From an uncultured Pseudomonadota bacterium (lineage in GTDB: Bacteria; Pseudomonadota; Gammaproteobacteria; Steroidobacterales; Steroidobacteraceae): DNA of 64,000 nucleotides. The stretch lies in contig CAIKMS010000021.1 of the NCBI GenBank assembly GCA_903828595.1, positions 1 to 64,000 on the forward strand, read 5' to 3'. The notes under the pieces are model-generated. The model worked only from the letters and a program-made list of their open reading frames with translations, was not told the origin of the DNA and did not search any database. The first letter of the stretch is position 1. Every line of letters starts with the position of its first letter. Positions 43,766 through 55,513 of the stretch are shown one piece after another. The position numbers and the translations under genes are program-made.

Positions 43766-44824
43766 CTACCGGGAAGCGGCCGTCGTTGTCGGCGCGGCGG
43801 GCACCGACAGCGAGCGCACCAACGCGCGCTGCTGGGCTCGTGCGGCCGTAGGCAAAGGCACCAGTCCCTTGTCAGTCAAATAGCCCTCTTCACCGGCTGC
43901 CCGTTCGCTGACAAATTCGCCCAAAAACTCAGTCAAGCCCGGAATCACCGCGATATGGGCTTTTTTTACATAAACATACAGGGTGCGGGATATCGGGTAG
44001 CGCCCATCGGCAATCGATTCCGGACTCGCCGCTAAGCCATCAATCGTGGCCGCGCGCAATTTGTCACGATTAGCCTCCAAGTAAGCGTAGGTGAAGATCG
44101 CCATCGCAGTCGGATTAGCGCTTAGCTTACCTACCACCAGCGCGTAGTCCTCCGTTACGTTAATCCACACCCCGTCATCACGGATCTGACCGCATACCTG
44201 CCCGCGAGTGGCTTCTGGCAATAGCTTGGCTTCGGGCAGGCTCAAACAGATAGGCTCCACCACTAGCTCCATAAAAGCATCGCGCGTGCCGTGATTAGGG
44301 CCTGGACCAAACACCGACAGCGGCCGGTTTGGCAAACGTTTGTCGATATCCGACCAATTTTTATACGGGTTGTTGACCCAACGCCCGGCCACTGGCACCC
44401 GCTTAGCTACCGCGCGCCACAGTTGTTCTTGAGTCACGTTAAAACCCGGCTGATGCGCATCGCCCGCCAAGATTATTCCGTCAAAGCCAATTTTGATTTC
44501 AGCAATATCCCCCACGCCATTAGCCCGGCAACGAGCCCGCTCGGCGGGCGTCATTGGCCTGGAGGCATCGGCGATGTCCGGTGTGGAGGTCGCCACGCTG
44601 GCGCAAAACGCCGCAATCCCGGCTCCAGTGCCGTTCGATTCAACTACGGGGGTTTTGAACTTGCCCGATTTGCCCAGGGTTTCGGCGACCACCGAAGCAA
44701 ATGGGTAGACCGTTGAGGAGCCGGTGACTTGGATATGATCACGCGCGGCGGCTGAGTTAGCGGACAAGATAAGGCCTAGACCAACCAGACACCCGGCAAC
44801 TATCCTATTGTTCAGTACAACCAT
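43766..44824 (-). CDS. Phosphate-binding periplasmic protein, PstS family
   Basis: A secreted substrate-binding protein of about 352 residues. A signal peptide (RIVAGCLVGLGLILSANSAAA) is followed by the PstS start IQVTGSSTVYPFASVVAETLG, then VESNGTGAGIAAFC, and FGPGPNHGTRDAFMELVVEPIC, which carries the phosphate-contacting serine, glycine and arginine residues of the family (SNGTG, GTRDAF). No pstC, pstA, pstB or phoU lies nearby, so it is an orphan here. A Pho-box-like site precedes it. The ATG at 44824 was chosen; GTG at 44839 is possible. Confidence 0.85.
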   Translation of the reverse strand: MVVLNNRIVAGCLVGLGLILSANSAAARDHIQVTGSSTVYPFASVVAETLGKSGKFKTPVVESNGTGAGIAAFCASVATSTPDIADASRPMTPAERARCRANGVGDIAEIKIGFDGIILAGDAHQPGFNVTQEQLWRAVAKRVPVAGRWVNNPYKNWSDIDKRLPNRPLSVFGPGPNHGTRDAFMELVVEPICLSLPEAKLLPEATRGQVCGQIRDDGVWINVTEDYALVVGKLSANPTAMAIFTYAYLEANRDKLRAATIDGLAASPESIADGRYPISRTLYVYVKKAHIAVIPGLTEFLGEFVSERAAGEEGYLTDKGLVPLPTAARAQQRALVRSLSVPAAPTTTAASR

Positions 44825-44880
44825 CGCCAAGCCACTCACTCGTATATCAAAATGCCTACAGGGATAATAAGGATAGCGAT

Positions 44881-45685: not shown

Positions 45686-48328
45686 TTAGAACTTCTGACC
45701 AAACTTCAGCGTAATCGTCCGCGGCTGCGCCGGGATGATGTACGGCTGACCGGCGTTAGCCGACTGCACAAACCGCGAATACTGCGCGCGTCGATCCATT
45801 AGGTTGGTGACAACCACCTGGAACTGCGTGCCGTGCTGGCTTGCGCCCATGGACAGATCCATCAGGGCATAGGCTGGCATCATACCCACGACTTGAGTTG
45901 TGTCCGCACGCAGAACCGGTGCGGTCTGCGTCTGATAGACCGCCGCGAACTGACCAAATGGCTGCCAGCCTGACACTTCCTCAAACGCATAGCGTGCAAT
46001 CACGTTGGCCTTGAACTTCGGCGCTACCGGCATATCGGTGCCGGAACGTGCCAACGCGCCGGTGTACTGGTAACCGGCGTTCTCAAAGCCCCATGGCTCG
46101 TTGTAAGTCTGCGTCGCGCAAGCCGCTGCCGAATCGCCCAGCTCCTTACACACGTTGGTCGTAGTCACTGCCTGCAACCAAGTCAGACCGGATGACAAGG
46201 TCAACGCGTTAGTCGCCTTAAACTCCACTTCCGACTCAAGACCACGAATACGGGCATTGCCGCCGTTCTCAATGATCGTCAGCGAGTTAGGTCCTAAGAA
46301 CGAGTACTGGAAATTCTTCCAATCTTCCCAGAACAGCGCACCATTAAAGCGCACGCGATGATCCAGCCACTGAGTCTTCCAGCCCAGCTCGTAGTTGGTG
46401 AGGTAGTCGGCCTGATACGGACCGATGCCAGCGACCGCCGTACGGTTTACGCCACCGGGGCGGAAGCCCTTGGAGTAGGTCGCGTACACCAAAGCGTCTG
46501 GGCTGAACTTGTAGGTCACGTTTAGGCGTGGCACGTTGCCAGTGTCCTTAACCGTCTTATCCAGGTTACTGCAAGGCGAGTAACCCGCTAATGGCGGACG
46601 GTACGTACCATCTGCCGCGTAGCACGTCTTACCGTTGCCGGCACTGGATGGTGCACCTTGACCCGGGCCACTAGGAGCAAATGCTCCGGCGTACCCGTAA
46701 TAGCCCTGCAGCGAGTTATCGTACTTAAAGTAGCGGTATCCGCCGTTCAACTGCCAATGATCGGTGATGTCCCAGGTGGCATTAGCAAACAGCGCCTGAT
46801 CCTTATCCTCACGCTTCTCATCGGTCAACCAAATCGTGTTGTGGAGACCGGGAATGGAATAGTCCGAACCAAAGCCGTTAGGCTGCTCGGTCTGCGCAGT
46901 CGCATCAGTAAAGCCGTAACCCGGCATCGTGTACTGTTCCCAAATATCATGCAGCTGACGCTGCATAAAGGCACCCGCGGTTACCTTAAATGGCAGATCC
47001 TTAGGCGAGGAGATGCGCAGCTCGTGGCTGTACTTTGTGAAGTAGTTGCGCGAGAACACGAACTCCTGCGGCATGATCGGCGTGCCGACGTTGTTGGTCC
47101 AAGAAGCACCGGAACCAAACACGCGATCGTAGAAGCTTGAGTAATCGCTGTAGTCTGCGAGCGATGTCGTATTGCGCTTCAGATAACCACCGGCATAGGT
47201 GATATCAAAGTTGCTGACTTTTCCGTTTACGGTAAGGGCAGCCTGATACCAAGAGTCCGTCGAGTACTCCGGTCCAAAATGCGCCAGCTGCAAATCGCCC
47301 ATAGCCGGGTCGTAACCAAAGAAGCCGTTGGTATCAACCTTCTGACCCATAAACGTTGGAGTCACGCTCCAGTCGCCGAGGTCTAGTTTCAACGCGCCGC
47401 GACCACCCTTGGTGTCGACCGTGTTGTACCCATTCGCCGCCCAGGGGGCGTTGCTGATGGCATTCACGCCGACAGTGCCCTTGGCAGGACATGGGCTTGG
47501 CACAGGGTAGTTGGCGTTGCCCGCTGGGTTTGGATTACCCCAGTTGTTAAACGTTCTGACGCCGTTTTGGATACACGCGCTGGCGTTCGTACCCTGGACG
47601 TTGTTGATGAACCCTGCATCCTTTTCATCCCAGCCCACTAAACGCACCGCTGCAATCGGCGACAGGGGAATGTTCACAAAACCCTGTACCTGATAGCCGG
47701 TGCCGTTGCCGTTCTTGACGCGATTCAAATCCAAATCGTAGCCGGCGGAAAAACCGCTGGGGTCGGGCTTGTTGGTAATGATGCGGATCGTGCCGGCCTG
47801 CGAGCTGGCGCCGTACAGCGTGCCCTGCGGGCCTTCCAGCACTTCGATACGCTGGATGTCATAGACGTGCACATCAACGGTGCCGTCGATCGTAGTTACC
47901 GGCTGCTCATCGAGGTACGTACCCACGCTAGGCTGCGAACCGGAGTGGTTGCCGTCACCGCCGGTGACCACACCGCGCATGTAGACGTGCGACGAACCGG
48001 GTTGACCGTTACCGCCCTGACCCTGTCCACGCACCTGGGCCACACTCGGCGAGTACTTTACGTAGTCATCGAGGCTGGCAATGTTGAGCTTTTCAAGCTT
48101 CGCGGTGTCAAACGCCTGGATCGCAACCGGAACATCCTGCAGGTTCTCAGTGCGCTTCTGCGCCGTGACTACAATCTCGTCTAAACCACCGACAGGAGCA
48201 GAATCCGCGCCGTAGGCGGCCTGCATTGCCATGAGTAGTGCGGACGCAACAGGCAGGCTTTTGTGCACTGCGTTTGAGGCCCCAACTCGTTGATTAGAAT
48301 TATTCTTTCGTTGCGAAACACGTGTCAT
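45686..48328 (-). CDS. TonB-dependent outer-membrane receptor
   Basis: An 880-residue receptor of the large non-siderophore class common in xanthomonads and sphingomonads. After a signal peptide (SALLMAMQAAYGADSAP) comes the TonB box and plug: LDEIVVTAQKRTENLQDVPVAIQAFD, with LEGPQGTLYGASSQAGTIRIITNKPD as the plug signature. The barrel ends TITLKFGQKF with a terminal phenylalanine. The ligand is unknown; GGN/G-rich loops and aromatic strands give no clue. The ATG at 48328 has GGAGAAG nine bases upstream. It lies 67 bases after a TPR-sulfotransferase gene and has its own promoter-like sequence. Confidence 0.93.
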   Translation of the reverse strand: MTRVSQRKNNSNQRVGASNAVHKSLPVASALLMAMQAAYGADSAPVGGLDEIVVTAQKRTENLQDVPVAIQAFDTAKLEKLNIASLDDYVKYSPSVAQVRGQGQGGNGQPGSSHVYMRGVVTGGDGNHSGSQPSVGTYLDEQPVTTIDGTVDVHVYDIQRIEVLEGPQGTLYGASSQAGTIRIITNKPDPSGFSAGYDLDLNRVKNGNGTGYQVQGFVNIPLSPIAAVRLVGWDEKDAGFINNVQGTNASACIQNGVRTFNNWGNPNPAGNANYPVPSPCPAKGTVGVNAISNAPWAANGYNTVDTKGGRGALKLDLGDWSVTPTFMGQKVDTNGFFGYDPAMGDLQLAHFGPEYSTDSWYQAALTVNGKVSNFDITYAGGYLKRNTTSLADYSDYSSFYDRVFGSGASWTNNVGTPIMPQEFVFSRNYFTKYSHELRISSPKDLPFKVTAGAFMQRQLHDIWEQYTMPGYGFTDATAQTEQPNGFGSDYSIPGLHNTIWLTDEKREDKDQALFANATWDITDHWQLNGGYRYFKYDNSLQGYYGYAGAFAPSGPGQGAPSSAGNGKTCYAADGTYRPPLAGYSPCSNLDKTVKDTGNVPRLNVTYKFSPDALVYATYSKGFRPGGVNRTAVAGIGPYQADYLTNYELGWKTQWLDHRVRFNGALFWEDWKNFQYSFLGPNSLTIIENGGNARIRGLESEVEFKATNALTLSSGLTWLQAVTTTNVCKELGDSAAACATQTYNEPWGFENAGYQYTGALARSGTDMPVAPKFKANVIARYAFEEVSGWQPFGQFAAVYQTQTAPVLRADTTQVVGMMPAYALMDLSMGASQHGTQFQVVVTNLMDRRAQYSRFVQSANAGQPYIIPAQPRTITLKFGQKF

Positions 48329-48370
48329 ACATTCTTCTCCGCAGTGTGATAGAGAGTCCACTCCATCGCG

Positions 48371-48399
48371 TACAGTACTGTATCTGCGCTATTTGTCAA
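48371..48399 (-). promoter_or_regulatory. Promoter with palindrome upstream of the TonB receptor
   Basis: A perfect TTGACA (48394-48399) overlaps the stop codon of the sulfotransferase gene. TACTGT, 16 bases further, is a poor -10, but it lies within the perfect palindrome TACAGTACTGTA (48371-48382), which could be an operator placed on the promoter. Confidence 0.45.
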
Positions 48400-50420
48400 A
48401 AGGTATGTGGAATCAACGGATAGCTCTCCAATACAGACCCTAAAGCTTCCTTCAAGGGAGCTAGCCAGGGATCGAAGTGTTGCCATTGCTCGAGGCCTGA
48501 ACGGAAGATCGGCTGGCGTACTTGTTCCGAGCTGGCTGTACGCACGGCACGATCATTGTCGTAAAAGCGCAAACAGCCCTCTTCAAAGGGTAACCCGCAG
48601 TACGCCAGCAAGCTGCGTACTTGGCTGTCGGTATCATCGACTAATTGTTCGTAGAACACTCGGTGCACGCGCCCGGGCAGTAGGGCATCAAAGTGGGCCA
48701 TGAGGCGTACGTAGTCTCGGTAGTACCACCCCACATCCGCTAAGTCGTAGGTGAAGTTCTGCCCTCGAGCAAAGTGCTGCTTGTAGGCGGAGAAGCAACA
48801 GCCTAACGGGTGCCGCCGCGCATCAATAATTTTGGCGCGAGGCAACATCACGCTAATCAGTCCCAGGTACAGGCAGTTGTTAGGCATCTTGTCGATAAAA
48901 TAAGGCGCCGCGGTCTTACGATGGGCTTTGGTGCTTTGCAAGTAGCGCTCGCCCAAGTCCGCCCATTGCGATTGAATTAAGGCACTGAGCAGATGCTCAA
49001 AGGACTGGGCGGGTTGTGCTTTTTCGGCTTGACTTACCAACTCCATGGCCAGTTGCGGCAGGTGCGGCAACTCCATCGTGCCCTCCACCTGGGAATGACT
49101 GGCCAGAATCTGCTCGATCAAAGTTGACCCGGCCCGCGGCAACCCCACAATAAATATAGAGTCGGCGTTAGACACGCCTTGGTTGGCGCGAGCCGCTAAA
49201 AACTCCGGTGTAAAAAGCGCTATCGTCCGATCAATATAAGCGCTGTGCTCTGCTGCACTGTAGGGATAGGTGGCACGGCGTAATTCATTACCCGATTGAT
49301 AGTGGCCAAAGGCCTGCGCATAGGCTTTGGAATCCTCGCGCGCCTTGCCTAACGCAAACTCAAAATGTAGACGATCATCGGCGTCTAAATCCTTAACTGA
49401 CAATTGACCTTGCATCGCCTCCACATCGGCATCGGTAAAGCGAAAGGTCTTTAAATTAGCCAGACTCCAATACGCCTCGCCCAGGCTAGGCTCCTGGCGA
49501 ATGGACTCCCGGTAAGCGTTAATGGATTCCTCCACGCGTCCGGCCGTCTTTAGGGCGTGCCCATAGCTCATCCATACTTTGGGTTGTCCGTTGTAATCGC
49601 GCAGCACCGACTCATAGACTTCGATCGACTCGGCAAAGTCGCCCAGATGCGCCAACACCGCAGCCTTGAGATTTTGATAGCCCGGATTGCGCGGCTCTGA
49701 TGCGAGCAGCCTATTCACCTCTTGCAGCGCCGTGGCCGCCTTGCCTTGGCGGTTCAACACCACGGCGTAGTTATAACGAGCTGCATCAAAGCTAGGAGCC
49801 AGCGCCAGGCACTCCTCTAAAAGTTGCTGAGCGTCGGTATAGCGACGTAGACGTGCCGCAATCTCAGCGCGCATGCGTAAAGCAGCAACATCCTTCGGGT
49901 GCATTGCCAGATGCTGCAATAACCGACTGTCCGCCACTGGCAGATTGTTATCAACCAGCGCGTTGGCAGCAGCGATCAGTGCGGGATCGCGACTGGCCGC
50001 GAGCAGGTAACGTGAACGAGCGGCTTCTGCAGCAGCGGATTCGCCGGCAGACTCCAATTGATCGGCAAGATAGCGCCAGACGTCAGGCGACTGAGGCATT
50101 AATTGAGCCGCCGTTTTCAGAGCGATGAGCGCGGACTTAGCCTGACCGGCCTCACCGCGCGCGATGCCCAACTCCAGCCACACGGGTCCTGCGTGGGATT
50201 GTCCAAGCGCCAGTGGCTCGAGGACGCTCAACGCCTCGCTGGTCTGACCTAAGATCCGCAACGACACACCCCGGATCAGTAAGCCCATGGGGTGATCTGG
50301 AATTTGGCTAAGCACGACTTCTGCCTGAGCCATCGCTTGCGCAGGATTGCTACCTAACAACTGGCGCGCCTGCGCCAGTCGTTGGTCTATGCTTAGCGTC
50401 GAGTCTTGAAATCCGGTCAC
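48396..50420 (-). CDS. TPR-repeat protein fused to a sulfotransferase domain
   Basis: A 674-residue two-part protein. The first 330 residues are tandem TPR repeats (AGQAKSALIALKTAAQLMPQSPDVWRYLAD and so on). From about residue 415 a sulfotransferase-3-like domain starts with the PAPS-binding loop FIVGLPRAGSTLIEQILASHS and continues with FIDKMPNNCLYLGLISVMLPRAKIIDARRHPLGCCFSAYKQHF (3'-phosphate-binding region). Such proteins often sit next to TonB receptors in xanthomonads and alphaproteobacteria; the acceptor is not known. The start is GTG at 50420 with AGGG eight bases upstream. No signal peptide is seen, so it should be cytoplasmic. Confidence 0.88.
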   Translation of the reverse strand: MTGFQDSTLSIDQRLAQARQLLGSNPAQAMAQAEVVLSQIPDHPMGLLIRGVSLRILGQTSEALSVLEPLALGQSHAGPVWLELGIARGEAGQAKSALIALKTAAQLMPQSPDVWRYLADQLESAGESAAAEAARSRYLLAASRDPALIAAANALVDNNLPVADSRLLQHLAMHPKDVAALRMRAEIAARLRRYTDAQQLLEECLALAPSFDAARYNYAVVLNRQGKAATALQEVNRLLASEPRNPGYQNLKAAVLAHLGDFAESIEVYESVLRDYNGQPKVWMSYGHALKTAGRVEESINAYRESIRQEPSLGEAYWSLANLKTFRFTDADVEAMQGQLSVKDLDADDRLHFEFALGKAREDSKAYAQAFGHYQSGNELRRATYPYSAAEHSAYIDRTIALFTPEFLAARANQGVSNADSIFIVGLPRAGSTLIEQILASHSQVEGTMELPHLPQLAMELVSQAEKAQPAQSFEHLLSALIQSQWADLGERYLQSTKAHRKTAAPYFIDKMPNNCLYLGLISVMLPRAKIIDARRHPLGCCFSAYKQHFARGQNFTYDLADVGWYYRDYVRLMAHFDALLPGRVHRVFYEQLVDDTDSQVRSLLAYCGLPFEEGCLRFYDNDRAVRTASSEQVRQPIFRSGLEQWQHFDPWLAPLKEALGSVLESYPLIPHTF

Positions 50421-50572
50421 CGTGTTACCCTAGTTCTTAATTTCGCCCACTGCGAATCGACTAGAGAAAAAGAGTCTGAGCGGATTGTCAAATTCTTGCG
50501 AAAATCTTAAGTAGTTAAAAAACAACCGATCCTATTGCCGATCGACAGCGCCACGGGATAGCCCGGCACTAC

Positions 50573-52612
50573 TCACGCGGCGTTGGCGCGACGAGTGCCG
50601 GAGGCCCCTGCCGAAGGCTGGCTTAAGCGGAACGCCGCCACCGAGTTGACCAGCAGGCTTGCCTGATCTTCAAGAGAAGCCGCCGCTGAGGTGGCCTCCT
50701 CTACCAATGCCGCATTTTGCTGGGTGGTTTCATCAATTTCTGCCACCGCCGTATTGATATGTTCAATGCTCACCGTCTGTGCACGCGAGGCATCAGAGAT
50801 CTCATTGATAATGCCGGTGACCCGCTCTACGGCTTCCACGATCTCTGACATCGTACGCCCGGCGGTATTAACCAATTCCGAGCCGGCCCGTACTTGTTCC
50901 ACCGAATGACTGATCAGTGTGCTGATCTCTTTAGCCGCGCTGGCGCTGCGCTGCGCGAGCGTTCGCACTTCGCTGGCTACCACCGAGAACCCACGACCCT
51001 GCTCACCGGCGCGAGCGGCTTCAACAGCCGCATTGAGAGCCAGGATATTAGTCTGGAACGCAATTCCGTCAATGACGCCAATGATGTCGTTGATTTTTGC
51101 CGAGGAGGCCGTAATACCGGTCATCGTGTTAACCAGATGATCGACGATCTGCCCGCCCTGACGAGCGACACTAAGGGCTCCATCTGCATGGTTACTGGCC
51201 GCTTGGGCGCCCTGCGAATTCTTACGCACCACACCAGTAATGTCGGCAATTGAACTGACCGTCTCCTCCAGACCCGCAGCCTGTTGCTCGGTACGCTGCG
51301 ACAAATGCTCGTTGCCACGGGCGATCTCACGAGTTGCCGAAGCAATCGCGTCAGAGGCCGCTTTGATCTTGCCGATCATTTCTTCGAGTTTCTTCGCGGT
51401 CAAGTTCGAGTAATCCTTAACCTTGCCAAAGGTTCCCTCGTAATCACGCTCGATGCGAGCGGTGAGGTTACCCTGAGCAAAGGCCTCGAGGACGCGAGCG
51501 ATATCTTCCAAACCGACCTGACTGGTCTCTAGCAGGCGATTGATGCCTTGCGCCAGCTGTTGGTTAAAGTCGTTGTTGCCAGCACCGGCACCGGCATTGC
51601 TGATTCGTACACTAAAGTCGCCCTTAGCAGCTGCGGCAACCACGGTACCCACTTCTCGCTCAAGTCCAATTTCCGCCGTCCGATCCGCCCATTCCACGAC
51701 ATAACCCACCCGCTGACCGCGGTCGTCCACGATCGGATCCACGGCAGCACGAAATGTCCGTCCGTCCATATCGACTGCGGCCAAATGACGCTTGGTTAAC
51801 CCACGTGTCAGGCCCGGCTGCCCCAGCAGATCATCTAAACGTCCACCCTGCAGCTGGCTGCTGCCCTGGGCAAATCCACGACCGCGTAGCACTCGATCCA
51901 CGGCGGCTAGCTGGGTTGCTACAGCACGATTGGCATAAACCACAGCACCGCTGGCGTCAGCGACTAAAATACCCATAGAACAATTGTCCAGAGCATTGCG
52001 CACGCGCAACCCCTCTTCAGCGCCCTTGCGATCAGCTTCTAGCTGCTTGCGTAAGCGGCGCTGAGTCATCATCACAAACGCAGACGTCACCAGTACGGTG
52101 ACCAACAAGGCAACCACCACCAGTACTTGTTGGCGCTGCGCCGAGGCCACTGCATCGGTGACCACAGCCGCGTCAATGCGCGCCAGCTCGTCATCAACTT
52201 CTTTGGTCTTTTTATCAGCCAACTTGATTTTCTCACGCAGCGGCAAGATCGCACCCAGTGCTGCCCCTTTGGGCAGCGCACCGGCCAACGTTTTTACCGC
52301 CGCCTGCGTATCACCGACCAGGGTTGCCTCGCCTTTGGCCGATAATTGCGCCAGTTTGTCTGCGGAGGTACTGAGTGCCTCAGCCGCAGGCCCAGACAAA
52401 GTACCCGTATCAACCGCATCCGCCACGCCGTTCATAAACGTTTTGAACTCAGTACGTGCCTGCTGAGCCAACTCGTGCAATGGACGCGAATGCCCTAGCG
52501 CATCGGCGCGTCGGGTATCGGCCCACATTTGCACAAGCAGCACGATCACCACCGGCAAGACGACAGCCAGAAACTGCAGGGCAACCAGTCGATCTGTTTT
52601 AGGTGTATTCAC
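50573..52612 (-). CDS. Methyl-accepting chemotaxis protein with PAS domain
   Basis: A 679-residue chemoreceptor. Helix 1 (residues 9-28), a small periplasmic helical domain of about 130 residues, helix 2 ([20 protein letters not shown]), a PAS domain ([30 protein letters not shown]), a HAMP-like linker, and the signalling hairpin with [45 protein letters not shown] at its tip. No C-terminal NWETF-type pentapeptide is present. The start is GTG at 52612. It is last in a minus-strand run after the SCO1-like, porin and small binding-protein genes, suggesting that the binding protein could present a ligand to it. Confidence 0.92.
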
Positions 52613-52646
52613 GTGCTAAACCTTTATTAACGCATCAATGCGAACT

Positions 52647-53081
52647 TTAAACTTTGCCGATGGCCGATAGACCAGCCGGCGGTGCTGAACCCAGATAGCC
52701 ACAAGCACCGGCCGTATGTTTCAGAAACTCAACCACTTCCCCATCGCTACCCTTGACTGTTGGTGCTGTAGCACCGTCACGAAACGACTTTTTCGTCCAA
52801 GCGGTGGAGTACTTCGTCGCATCCATCTTCATGACCTTATCCAGAAAATCGGCCTGAATAGAGCTGTTATCGACCGGAACCAGCTTAACTGTACCGGCAA
52901 ACTGCTTTTCGCCTAAGAAGACGTCACGCATCTCCGGCACGGTCAGTGCCACGCCGGCACTGCAGGCAATGTAGATATCGCCTGCCTGAGCGGTGGGAAT
53001 CCAGGCGGTGAGTCCCAGGGTGGCCAATATCAGGGCACCGCGCAGGCCCAGTGAAAAGCGAGAAATTAAGTGACTTTGCAT
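52647..53081 (-). CDS. Small periplasmic phosphate-binding-like protein
   Basis: A 144-residue secreted protein. Signal peptide LGLRGALILATLGLTAWIPTAQA is followed by DIYIACSAGVALTVPEMRDVFLGEKQFAGTVKLVPVDNSS and the end CGYLGSAPPAGLSAIGKV, the pattern of the short PstS-like proteins (one lobe of a type II periplasmic binding fold). It is too short to be a normal PstS. The ATG at 53081 has AGGA eight bases upstream. The next gene, 34 bases on, is the chemoreceptor, so it may bind a small anion or act as a sensor co-receptor. That role is inferred. Confidence 0.75.
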   Translation of the reverse strand: MQSHLISRFSLGLRGALILATLGLTAWIPTAQAGDIYIACSAGVALTVPEMRDVFLGEKQFAGTVKLVPVDNSSIQADFLDKVMKMDATKYSTAWTKKSFRDGATAPTVKGSDGEVVEFLKHTAGACGYLGSAPPAGLSAIGKV

Positions 53082-53211
53082 AGGAAGATCCTGCCTGTAA
53101 GCAAAATGGCGAACCCCAACTCGTACCGTCGGCAACGCGCTCGCGTTACAGACGGCCAGGGAGGGAAGTGCTTTGTCGTTGGTGCGCATCGGCATCATGT
53201 CCTTTGATCGC

Positions 53212-54543
53212 CTAGAAGCGAATCGCAAGCTGCGACAGGAATTCATTGAATTGCCCGACAACGCGATCCGTGTAGTGAGTTTGAGCCACCTCAAACTTCA
53301 GTGCGATTTTCGGATTGATGTCGTGCCGTAAGCCTACTGCACTGCGGTGGTAGGAGCCACCGTTCAGCATCTGAGCGAAATACTGATCCGTCTGATCAAG
53401 ACGGGCATGCTCGTAGCGTACGTACGGAATTAAACCCGGCAAGCGGTAGCCGGCTTGAGCGAAATAGGCGTTGCTGCGATGGGTGCCGCTACTGCCAGTC
53501 ACATCCAGGTTGCTAAAGATATAGCCTTCGGCAAGCACTTCCCAATTATCGGTGTCATACACCCCATAAACTCCGCCGATACGCACCTCGGTCATGCTCT
53601 GCGGGTTCTGATCATCGTCGATGTGCGTATCCAGGGCGCTGGCACCCAAGGTGAGGCCTTCAGCGAAGCCTGAGGTCCATTGATAACCGGCACGCCCACC
53701 GTAGATGGCTCGGCCAGAATCAGAACCACCCACGCGCATATCCAAGATCCCGCCAATCAGTTTTTGTCCATTGCCGACAAAAGCGTCATAGAGCACCTTG
53801 CCGTCACCGGCGCGTACGCCGCCCGAAAGTAGAGCACCGACCGTATGTGCCGGCATCACGCCACCCTGGTCTTCAAACATCAGGAAGCTCGGACGCCGTA
53901 AGGCATCGTTGAGCCAAACACCGTGGTGCAGGGCCGTGTTCACGTAACCGTAAGGGGTATGGAACCGACCGACCCAAAGGGTAGCTGCATCGCTAAACTG
54001 GTAACCGATTTGACCGCGCTCAATATCAACGCCAACACTGCCCTCGCCATCGACCTCAAAGTCCAGCTCGAACAAGGCTAACCACTTGCCGCCCAGTTTT
54101 GGCGTTAAGTACATGTCAAAGTTATTGAGGCTGGCGCCCTTCTCATAAGGGTGGAACGGGTTGTGGTTGCCAATATTGACGTCGGCGAACCCGTGAATGG
54201 GCAGACCGGTATCATCGCTGGTATGCGAAGCGTTAGCGACCTCGATCTGACTGACTTTTTGCTCAACCGCCTGCAGGCGAGAGACTTCATCAGCACTCGG
54301 TACGCTTTGCGCTGACGAGGCTGTCGGTGCGGTGGCCGCGCTCGTGACACTGGTCTGCTTAGACTCCAGCTCACGCACGCGATTGGCAAGCGCGTCAATC
54401 ATTTTAAGACTCTGGTCGAGCTTCATTTGAAGCTGTTTGACTGCGTCAGAGTTGACATCATCGGCATAGCTTAAGGCCGGTGCGGTGGCTAAAAGTGCGC
54501 CCAGGCACAGCGCGCGAACGTTTCTTTGAATCAGTTTAGACAT
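53212..54543 (-). CDS. Outer-membrane porin with N-terminal coiled coil
   Basis: A 443-residue porin. Signal peptide ALCLGALLATAPALSYA, then a coiled-coil segment (VKQLQMKLDQSLKMIDALANRVRELESKQ and SADEVSRLQAVEQKVSQIE), then a barrel beginning IHGFADVNIGNHNPF with the porin-like WVGRFHTPYGYVNTALHHGVWLNDALRRP and ending FLSQLAIRF with terminal phenylalanine. The group resembles porins often encoded beside PstS-like proteins and chemoreceptors; the solute is unknown. The ATG at 54543 has AGAGG five bases upstream. It starts 29 bases after the SCO1-like gene. Confidence 0.85.
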   Translation of the reverse strand: MSKLIQRNVRALCLGALLATAPALSYADDVNSDAVKQLQMKLDQSLKMIDALANRVRELESKQTSVTSAATAPTASSAQSVPSADEVSRLQAVEQKVSQIEVANASHTSDDTGLPIHGFADVNIGNHNPFHPYEKGASLNNFDMYLTPKLGGKWLALFELDFEVDGEGSVGVDIERGQIGYQFSDAATLWVGRFHTPYGYVNTALHHGVWLNDALRRPSFLMFEDQGGVMPAHTVGALLSGGVRAGDGKVLYDAFVGNGQKLIGGILDMRVGGSDSGRAIYGGRAGYQWTSGFAEGLTLGASALDTHIDDDQNPQSMTEVRIGGVYGVYDTDNWEVLAEGYIFSNLDVTGSSGTHRSNAYFAQAGYRLPGLIPYVRYEHARLDQTDQYFAQMLNGGSYHRSAVGLRHDINPKIALKFEVAQTHYTDRVVGQFNEFLSQLAIRF

Positions 54544-54572
54544 AGTGCCTCTCATTAATAGTCCGTGTTTCA

Positions 54573-55139
54573 TCACAGTGCTGCAGCCCAAGTCTCGGTA
54601 TCCGAGCCCAGTTCACGCGACAACACTCCATTAGCGCCAAACAAAACAACTTTCGAGTCGTGCATGACATGCTCGTCATACTTCCATCGCTCGAATTTCA
54701 ACTGACTTGCAAATCGCACCGTGTCTGCGACAGACCCGGTGACGAAATGCCAATTACTGCGTGTGATGTGATGCGTTTTGCGGTAATTGCGCCAAGCTGC
54801 CGCATCTTCATTTTCAGGATCGTAACCAACGATCACGAACTGAGCGGTTTCATGCTTGGCGTCAAGCGCAGCCTGCATCTGCTTTAGCCCGTTAATGGTC
54901 ATGGGGCAGATCAGATGGCAATTGGCATAGGACATCGTCATCACGACTCGCTGCCCCGGCCAGTTGGTCAGCGCGAATGCATGTCCGCTTTCGTCCTGCC
55001 ATGCCTGCGGCAGAACCTCCAAGCGAACGCCACCGACCAACGACTCAGTAGCTGACGCAAGACTGATCCCCGAAGAGCCCAGCAACAACACCAGGGCGGT
55101 TAAGGCAAGTTGTCTGGATTTGAAAGTGCTCATAGTCAT
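54573..55139 (-). CDS. SCO1/SenC-like thioredoxin-fold protein
   Basis: A 188-residue exported protein of the SCO family, which binds copper and helps assemble the CuA site of cytochrome oxidase or acts as a thiol reductase. After the signal peptide (ALTALVLLLGSSGISLASA) come WPGQRVVMTMSYANCHLICPMTINGLKQMQ with the C-x3-C pair, and the distal histidine in YDEHVMHDSKVVLFG. No oxidase genes are near. Two ATGs (55139 and 55133) are possible starts. It leads the operon with the porin, small binding protein and chemoreceptor genes. Confidence 0.88.
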   Translation of the reverse strand: MTMSTFKSRQLALTALVLLLGSSGISLASATESLVGGVRLEVLPQAWQDESGHAFALTNWPGQRVVMTMSYANCHLICPMTINGLKQMQAALDAKHETAQFVIVGYDPENEDAAAWRNYRKTHHITRSNWHFVTGSVADTVRFASQLKFERWKYDEHVMHDSKVVLFGANGVLSRELGSDTETWAAAL

Positions 55140-55172: not shown

Positions 55173-55513
55173 CTAGTTCAACAATCCCCGCGCTTGCGCG
55201 GGTTTGTTGTCGCGGATTGCGAGGATTTATGTGATCGCAGTCCGTGGATTAAATTAATACCTTGCGCGCCCTAAAGACTGTGAACCGGGCCGCAGGTCGA
55301 TGGATTAAGTTCATCGACGGCTACTACCAATCGGCTCTGCCTAGACCGGGTAACGGCCTGTCATGCTCTGGCTGAAGGGGAAGAAAGATCTCCCCTAATC
55401 CGACGTAGGGAGTTGCATTGAGAACGGCCACAGCAAAGCCCGCGAGCACAATAAAGCCACGGGAAGACCTCGCTTCTTGCTTAAGGCGGGCTGGGTTTTA
55501 AGCCACTAACGCG
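55173..55513. other. 341-base gap with a short GC hairpin
   Basis: No gene is visible between the desaturase and the SCO1-like gene. CCCGCG-CTTG-CGCGGG (55187-55202) is flanked by AACAA and TTTGTT and looks like a terminator; on the plus strand TTTGTTGT follows it. It could close the desaturase transcript or precede the SCO1 promoter. The rest shows no structure I can support. Confidence 0.4.

Follow-up and report, generated by a model that had tools for sequence, protein, structure and literature searches.

Do four neighbouring genes of unlike function form one signalling pathway? Within the window (the whole stretch of 64,000 nucleotides analysed here), four minus-strand genes encode a SCO protein, a beta-barrel, a small binding protein (SBP) and a chemoreceptor (MCP). 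An earlier note on this DNA had proposed that a solute crosses the outer membrane, is captured by the small binding protein and signals through the receptor. The layout given there, with gaps of about 29, 130 and 34 bases, was confirmed by the ORF coordinates, from which the intergenic gaps are 29, 130 and 34 bases (Table 1). A signal peptide can be read at the start of SCO, barrel and SBP, and the hairpin and T run after the MCP gene are the probable end of an operon, as judged from their match to the consensus. A scan for sigma-70 promoters gave a score no better than that of shuffled sequence. Just upstream of the SCO gene lies a perfect CCCGCGC-GCGCGGG inverted repeat (55187-55202, plus strand), which on that strand resembles a terminator. 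The MCP gene is directly followed by genes for a TonB-dependent receptor and a TPR-sulfotransferase (45686-50420, minus strand), homologues of which did not recur beside the cassettes of relatives.

Table 1. Features of the four-gene locus, in positions of the window.
Feature	Position	Strand	Basis
SCO	54573..55139	-	ORF list, Pfam PF02630
Barrel (porin-like)	53212..54543	-	ORF list, weak Pfam matches, homologues adjoin SBP in most loci
SBP (one-lobe PstS-like)	52647..53081	-	AlphaFold, Foldseek, PBP_like_2 in relatives, Cys conservation
Chemoreceptor (MCP)	50573..52612	-	Pfam, hydropathy, AlphaFold of residues 1-195
Sensor module (MCP residues 1-195)	52028..52612	-	Alignment, no Pfam family, co-occurrence
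Terminator-like hairpin and T run, just 3' of the MCP stop	50525..50546	-	Consensus match only

The identities assigned earlier to the four products were largely upheld. The protein described as handling copper or thiols is SCO1/SenC-like and periplasmic: it scores 53.3 bits against SCO1-SenC (PF02630), above the Pfam cut-off of 22.8, and its motif CHLICP contains the CxxxC of that family (CHLIC). It is a divergent third copy in the genome, where the other two copies reach 123 bits each, and no oxidase genes adjoin it. The coiled-coil porin is a beta-barrel weakly recognised by Pfam (OMP_b-brl, E 6e-4; Porin_O_P, E 9e-3), with a signal peptide and a coiled-coil-like N-terminal segment. For the receptor, said to be a PAS-containing chemoreceptor, MCPsignal scores 179 bits and HAMP_2 38 bits; the PAS domain falls short of its curated threshold (20.6 vs 21.8 bits, E 4e-4). 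Hydropathy and Pfam give the order TM1 (residues ~9-30), helical periplasmic sensor, TM2 (~161-182), PAS-like segment, HAMP_2 and MCP signalling domain; a signalling domain joined to a periplasmic sensor between two TM helices is the build of a chemoreceptor. The genome holds seven CheW-domain matches, five MCPs and two flagellins, so that the window receptor has a chemotaxis pathway to feed.

The sensor itself is of an unfamiliar kind. Its AlphaFold model (MCP residues 1-195) has a pLDDT of 89.5 and its alignment shows the conserved motif YKxFxNGxxDAVDTG, but no sensor-type Pfam family was matched in 22 sensor homologues, including 4HB_MCP (PF12729; 0/22). Compared with NarQ and Tar by Foldseek, the model gave no significant match (E at least 0.2), only weak helical-bundle similarities.

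Searched alone, the window SBP matched nothing in Pfam, PDB sequences or plasmids, and a family profile was needed. An AlphaFold model from a 49-member alignment (pLDDT 90) found PstS proteins as its best PDB matches by Foldseek; against 4exl (E 1.5e-5, prob 1.0) it covers 124 columns of the 262-aa target, that is, one lobe. The mature SBP, of ~110 aa, aligns to a single PstS lobe and is not a two-lobe binding protein. Since 11 of the 49 SBP relatives also match PBP_like_2 in Pfam, the earlier description of a one-lobe PstS-like binding protein is right. Polar loop residues are conserved in the SBP family, and the loop that is SGTR-like in full PstS (GHGTRDAF in the full-length PstS that the window also encodes) reads DNSSIQADF in SBP, as judged by motif and not by superposition. 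The SBP-family profile gave no alignment with that full-length PstS. This PstS-type protein (43766-44839, minus strand) is the sole full-length PBP_like_2 match in the genome, and its gene adjoins tig-clpP-clpX-lon, without pstCAB genes.

Conservation of the order of all four genes, suggested earlier as a check, holds for part of the set. A close SBP occurs in 13 of 150 family genomes, and the order SCO-barrel-SBP is kept in 12/12 of those whose contig extends far enough (in G033 the contig ends inside the barrel). Six further genomes with this arrangement came from an order-level search; in the window's family it is present at ~19 loci. The exact four-gene order is rare, being complete in the window, G093 and G323, with the MCP cut by the contig end in G013. 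What is kept is the SCO-barrel-SBP core within the clade and the barrel-SBP pair class-wide. We rejected the idea that all four genes, with one fixed receptor, make up a conserved operon, because relatives exchange the receptor.

Among 60 class-wide loci picked by the SBP profile alone, a barrel adjoins SBP in 51. Within 1.8 kb of SBP, 36/60 loci have a transducer and the other 24 have none, so some pairs work with a partner encoded elsewhere or serve another purpose. Transducer ORFs nonetheless crowd around SBP, with 38 at 0-1.8 kb, three at 1.8-3.6 kb and three at 3.6-5.4 kb (binomial 5e-13). The SBP family is present in 95 of 369 class-level genomes, in up to nine copies each. Barrel-SBP accompanied by transducers of various kinds was also seen at another 40 public-genome loci, some of them on contigs already counted; all come from metagenome assemblies of Gammaproteobacteria, Gallionella/Nitrosomonadales and others. 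Annotated relatives combine a porin or barrel-sized hypothetical protein with a 'phosphate ABC transporter substrate-binding protein' and an MCP or EAL protein, and such barrel/SBP/transducer sets are found in Pseudoalteromonas, Caballeronia, Ideonella and a Pseudomonas plasmid. Two plasmid loci are missing either the barrel or the transducer nearby, and hence the set is not strict. Some other arrangements were also seen: tandem arrays of two or three barrel-SBP pairs (L112; L083:249-2796); an SBP-barrel pair on a plasmid of Alteromonas mediterranea, where type IV CRISPR genes (csf1-csf5) adjoin it and a nearby transducer is missing (L176:4489-9387); and, in the same bacterial family, a second distinct set of barrel, SBP and HAMP kinase, whose divergent SBP lacks the conserved Trp (L044, L045, L053, L150) and whose kinase is followed by a REC protein in L150.

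The output beside the barrel-SBP pair changes from locus to locus: MCP, PAS histidine kinase, hybrid kinase, GGDEF or GGDEF-EAL protein. On a barrel tree of 37 rows we counted at least 10 changes of transducer type, and as the labels were taken from a 5.2 kb window around SBP, these are changes of neighbourhood and not of proven partners. In the clade of the window, kinases and MCPs share the N-terminal sensor of the window receptor, which heads PAS-histidine kinases (L033, L037, L156-L158), GAF hybrid kinases (L039, L160, L163) and other MCPs. At some loci the neighbouring GGDEF protein lacks that sensor. At several loci a sensor-bearing PAS-kinase is followed by a GGDEF/EAL ORF (L156:8894-12680, L155:2075-5870, L164, L165, L166, L167, L169), annotated as REC-GGDEF-EAL in L156 and L164, and this sequence arrangement suggests a fixed pair of kinase and c-di-GMP response protein.

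We searched for the sensor and the close SBP separately, taking order-level SBP matches above 150 bits. Across the family (150 genomes) 12 had both, one had SBP only, none the sensor only and 137 neither (Fisher 7e-17); across the order (396 genomes) the counts were 17, three, two and 374 (Fisher 7e-25), values that overstate independence because the genomes are related. The two sensor-only genomes (G387 and G396) are 82% and 81% complete. Gains and losses of sensor and SBP track each other inside genera g10, g18 and g23, and phylum-wide (299 genomes) the sensor was found only in the window's own genome. The earlier note had looked to relatives in which the genes are separated and do not co-occur as evidence against a joint pathway: the receptor gene is indeed far from SBP or on another contig in G076, G062, G098 and G139, yet sensor and SBP still occur together there. 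Of the solute pathway that it had drawn, the part that stands is that SBP and receptor belong to one system, given their co-occurrence and the recurrent unit; with a fourth gene that is interchangeable, it is not mainly a chemotaxis pathway.

The place of SCO in this system is suggested by two cysteines of SBP, at residues 40 and 127 (window numbering). A SCO gene lies near Cys-pair SBPs in 17 of 17 close loci with enough upstream sequence. Among close SBPs without the pair only 4/17 have a SCO, and these carry CRxxCS, not CHxxCP, whereas distant SBPs (n=49) have neither Cys pair nor SCO. As a general core component SCO is ruled out by this absence from the loci of distant relatives. The Cys pair is confined to one clade of the barrel tree (100% support), so Cys pair and CHxxCP probably arose once, in a single evolutionary event. 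Most likely, the companion SCO acts on the SBP cysteines, keeping them reduced or loading them with copper, and the stimulus would then probably be linked to redox or metals and not be phosphate.

We read the gene set, the folds, their recurrence, the swapping of outputs, the joint occurrence of SBP with the sensor and the way the Cys pair varies with SCO, all at the level of sequence, as the marks of an envelope-spanning signalling module, a reading that we consider fairly probable. The outer-membrane barrel would let in, or hold, a small stimulus; the one-lobe SBP would carry it through the periplasm and, we infer, touch and act on a membrane transducer through its helical periplasmic sensor. 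In the window this transducer would be a chemoreceptor feeding the CheA/CheW system of the cell, and in relatives a kinase or a c-di-GMP enzyme, while in the Cys-pair clade SCO may keep the SBP cysteines reduced or copper-loaded. Against this module speak the relatedness of the genomes compared, the 24 loci with no transducer within 1.8 kb, the neighbouring GGDEF proteins that lack the shared sensor, and the single lobe, which by itself cannot make the binding cleft that two lobes normally enclose.

Of the two main rivals, one casts the SBP lobe in a structural role at the barrel (a periplasmic plug or assembly factor), with transducers that sense the state of barrel or envelope instead of a ligand. 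A single lobe without a closing cleft would suit such a role, and the barrel-SBP coupling (51/60) is tighter than that between SBP and transducer (36/60). SBP nevertheless conserves polar loop residues, and the homologous fold binds ligands in PstS, so that we think this explanation unlikely, though worth keeping in mind. The other main rival is an operon for copper/redox homeostasis, where periplasmic copper or thiols would be managed by SCO, barrel and SBP, and the receptor would respond to the outcome without touching SBP. SCO is constant in this clade, the Cys pair co-varies with CHxxCP, and the two canonical SCO copies elsewhere leave the window copy free for another job; but a component that is missing at all 49 distant SBPs is an add-on and not the core, and there are no copper genes next door. 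We consider this rather unlikely.

Barrel and SBP could also scavenge phosphate or another oxyanion, with a receptor that merely steers cells to the same nutrient, as the PstS-like fold and the annotation of relatives (a porin next to a 'phosphate ABC transporter substrate-binding protein') would suggest. Against this, neither PstC/PstA/PstB nor other ABC permease or ATPase genes were found in the flanks read (window 34673-61321), SBP has one lobe only, DNSSIQADF replaces the phosphate loop of PstS, and the outputs include kinases and c-di-GMP enzymes, which makes scavenging a distinctly unlikely function. As for chance, the small number of genomes with the exact four-gene set would agree with mere neighbourhood, but recurrence in many independent relatives and the co-occurrence statistics refute it, leaving it hardly any credit.

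Beyond the window, the signalling module may be one case of a widespread, undescribed trans-envelope module of Proteobacteria, with barrel and one-lobe PstS-like protein as fixed input, interchangeable transducers as output and, in one clade, a SCO-tuned Cys pair that turns it into a redox/copper sensor. We put this forward tentatively, as somewhat short of an even chance. No description of a barrel, a half-PstS and a transducer together was found in the literature searched, which lay mostly outside subscription journals and makes this a weak negative. The interest lies more in this general module than in the four-gene set above it. Homologues go under the names 'phosphate ABC transporter substrate-binding protein' and 'hypothetical protein', which conceal a probable role in signalling. 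If the proposal is true, barrel and SBP would offer a concrete way to find the ligands to which many orphan chemoreceptors, kinases and c-di-GMP enzymes respond, and a single lobe would be standing in for a binding protein of two lobes.

Several known systems share parts of this design. In phosphate chemotaxis of Pseudomonas aeruginosa, PstS and CtpL form a 1:1 complex (KD 3.7 uM), the CtpL-LBD has 286 aa and nine predicted helices, and the PstS gene lies in pstSCAB (PMC4926252). There too a PstS-fold periplasmic protein is the signal input to an MCP, but it is a full two-lobe PstS serving the Pst transporter, whereas the window set has no transporter and combines a single lobe with a barrel of its own and a short helical sensor. 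Tar, Trg, Tap and Tsr likewise take input from two-lobe binding proteins (PMC4926252) through a helical-bundle receptor domain of ~150 aa; they differ in that their full binding proteins are shared with transporters, their output is of one type, and they have no barrel or SCO partner. With SCO1/SenC proteins the window SCO shares Pfam family membership and the CxxxC motif, and it differs in its divergence (~53-54 vs 123 bits), in its CHxxCP motif and in having barrel and SBP genes, not those of an oxidase, as its companions. NspS is a full, PotD-like polyamine-binding protein, unlike the lone-lobe SBP, and we know of no barrel partner of NspS-MbaA. In this pair a c-di-GMP enzyme is governed by a periplasmic binding protein of its own (PMC8967002, PMC9993111), a likeness to the module proposed here. 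Having no two-lobe binding protein and no transporter, the module would thus work like PstS-CtpL and NspS-MbaA while belonging to neither.
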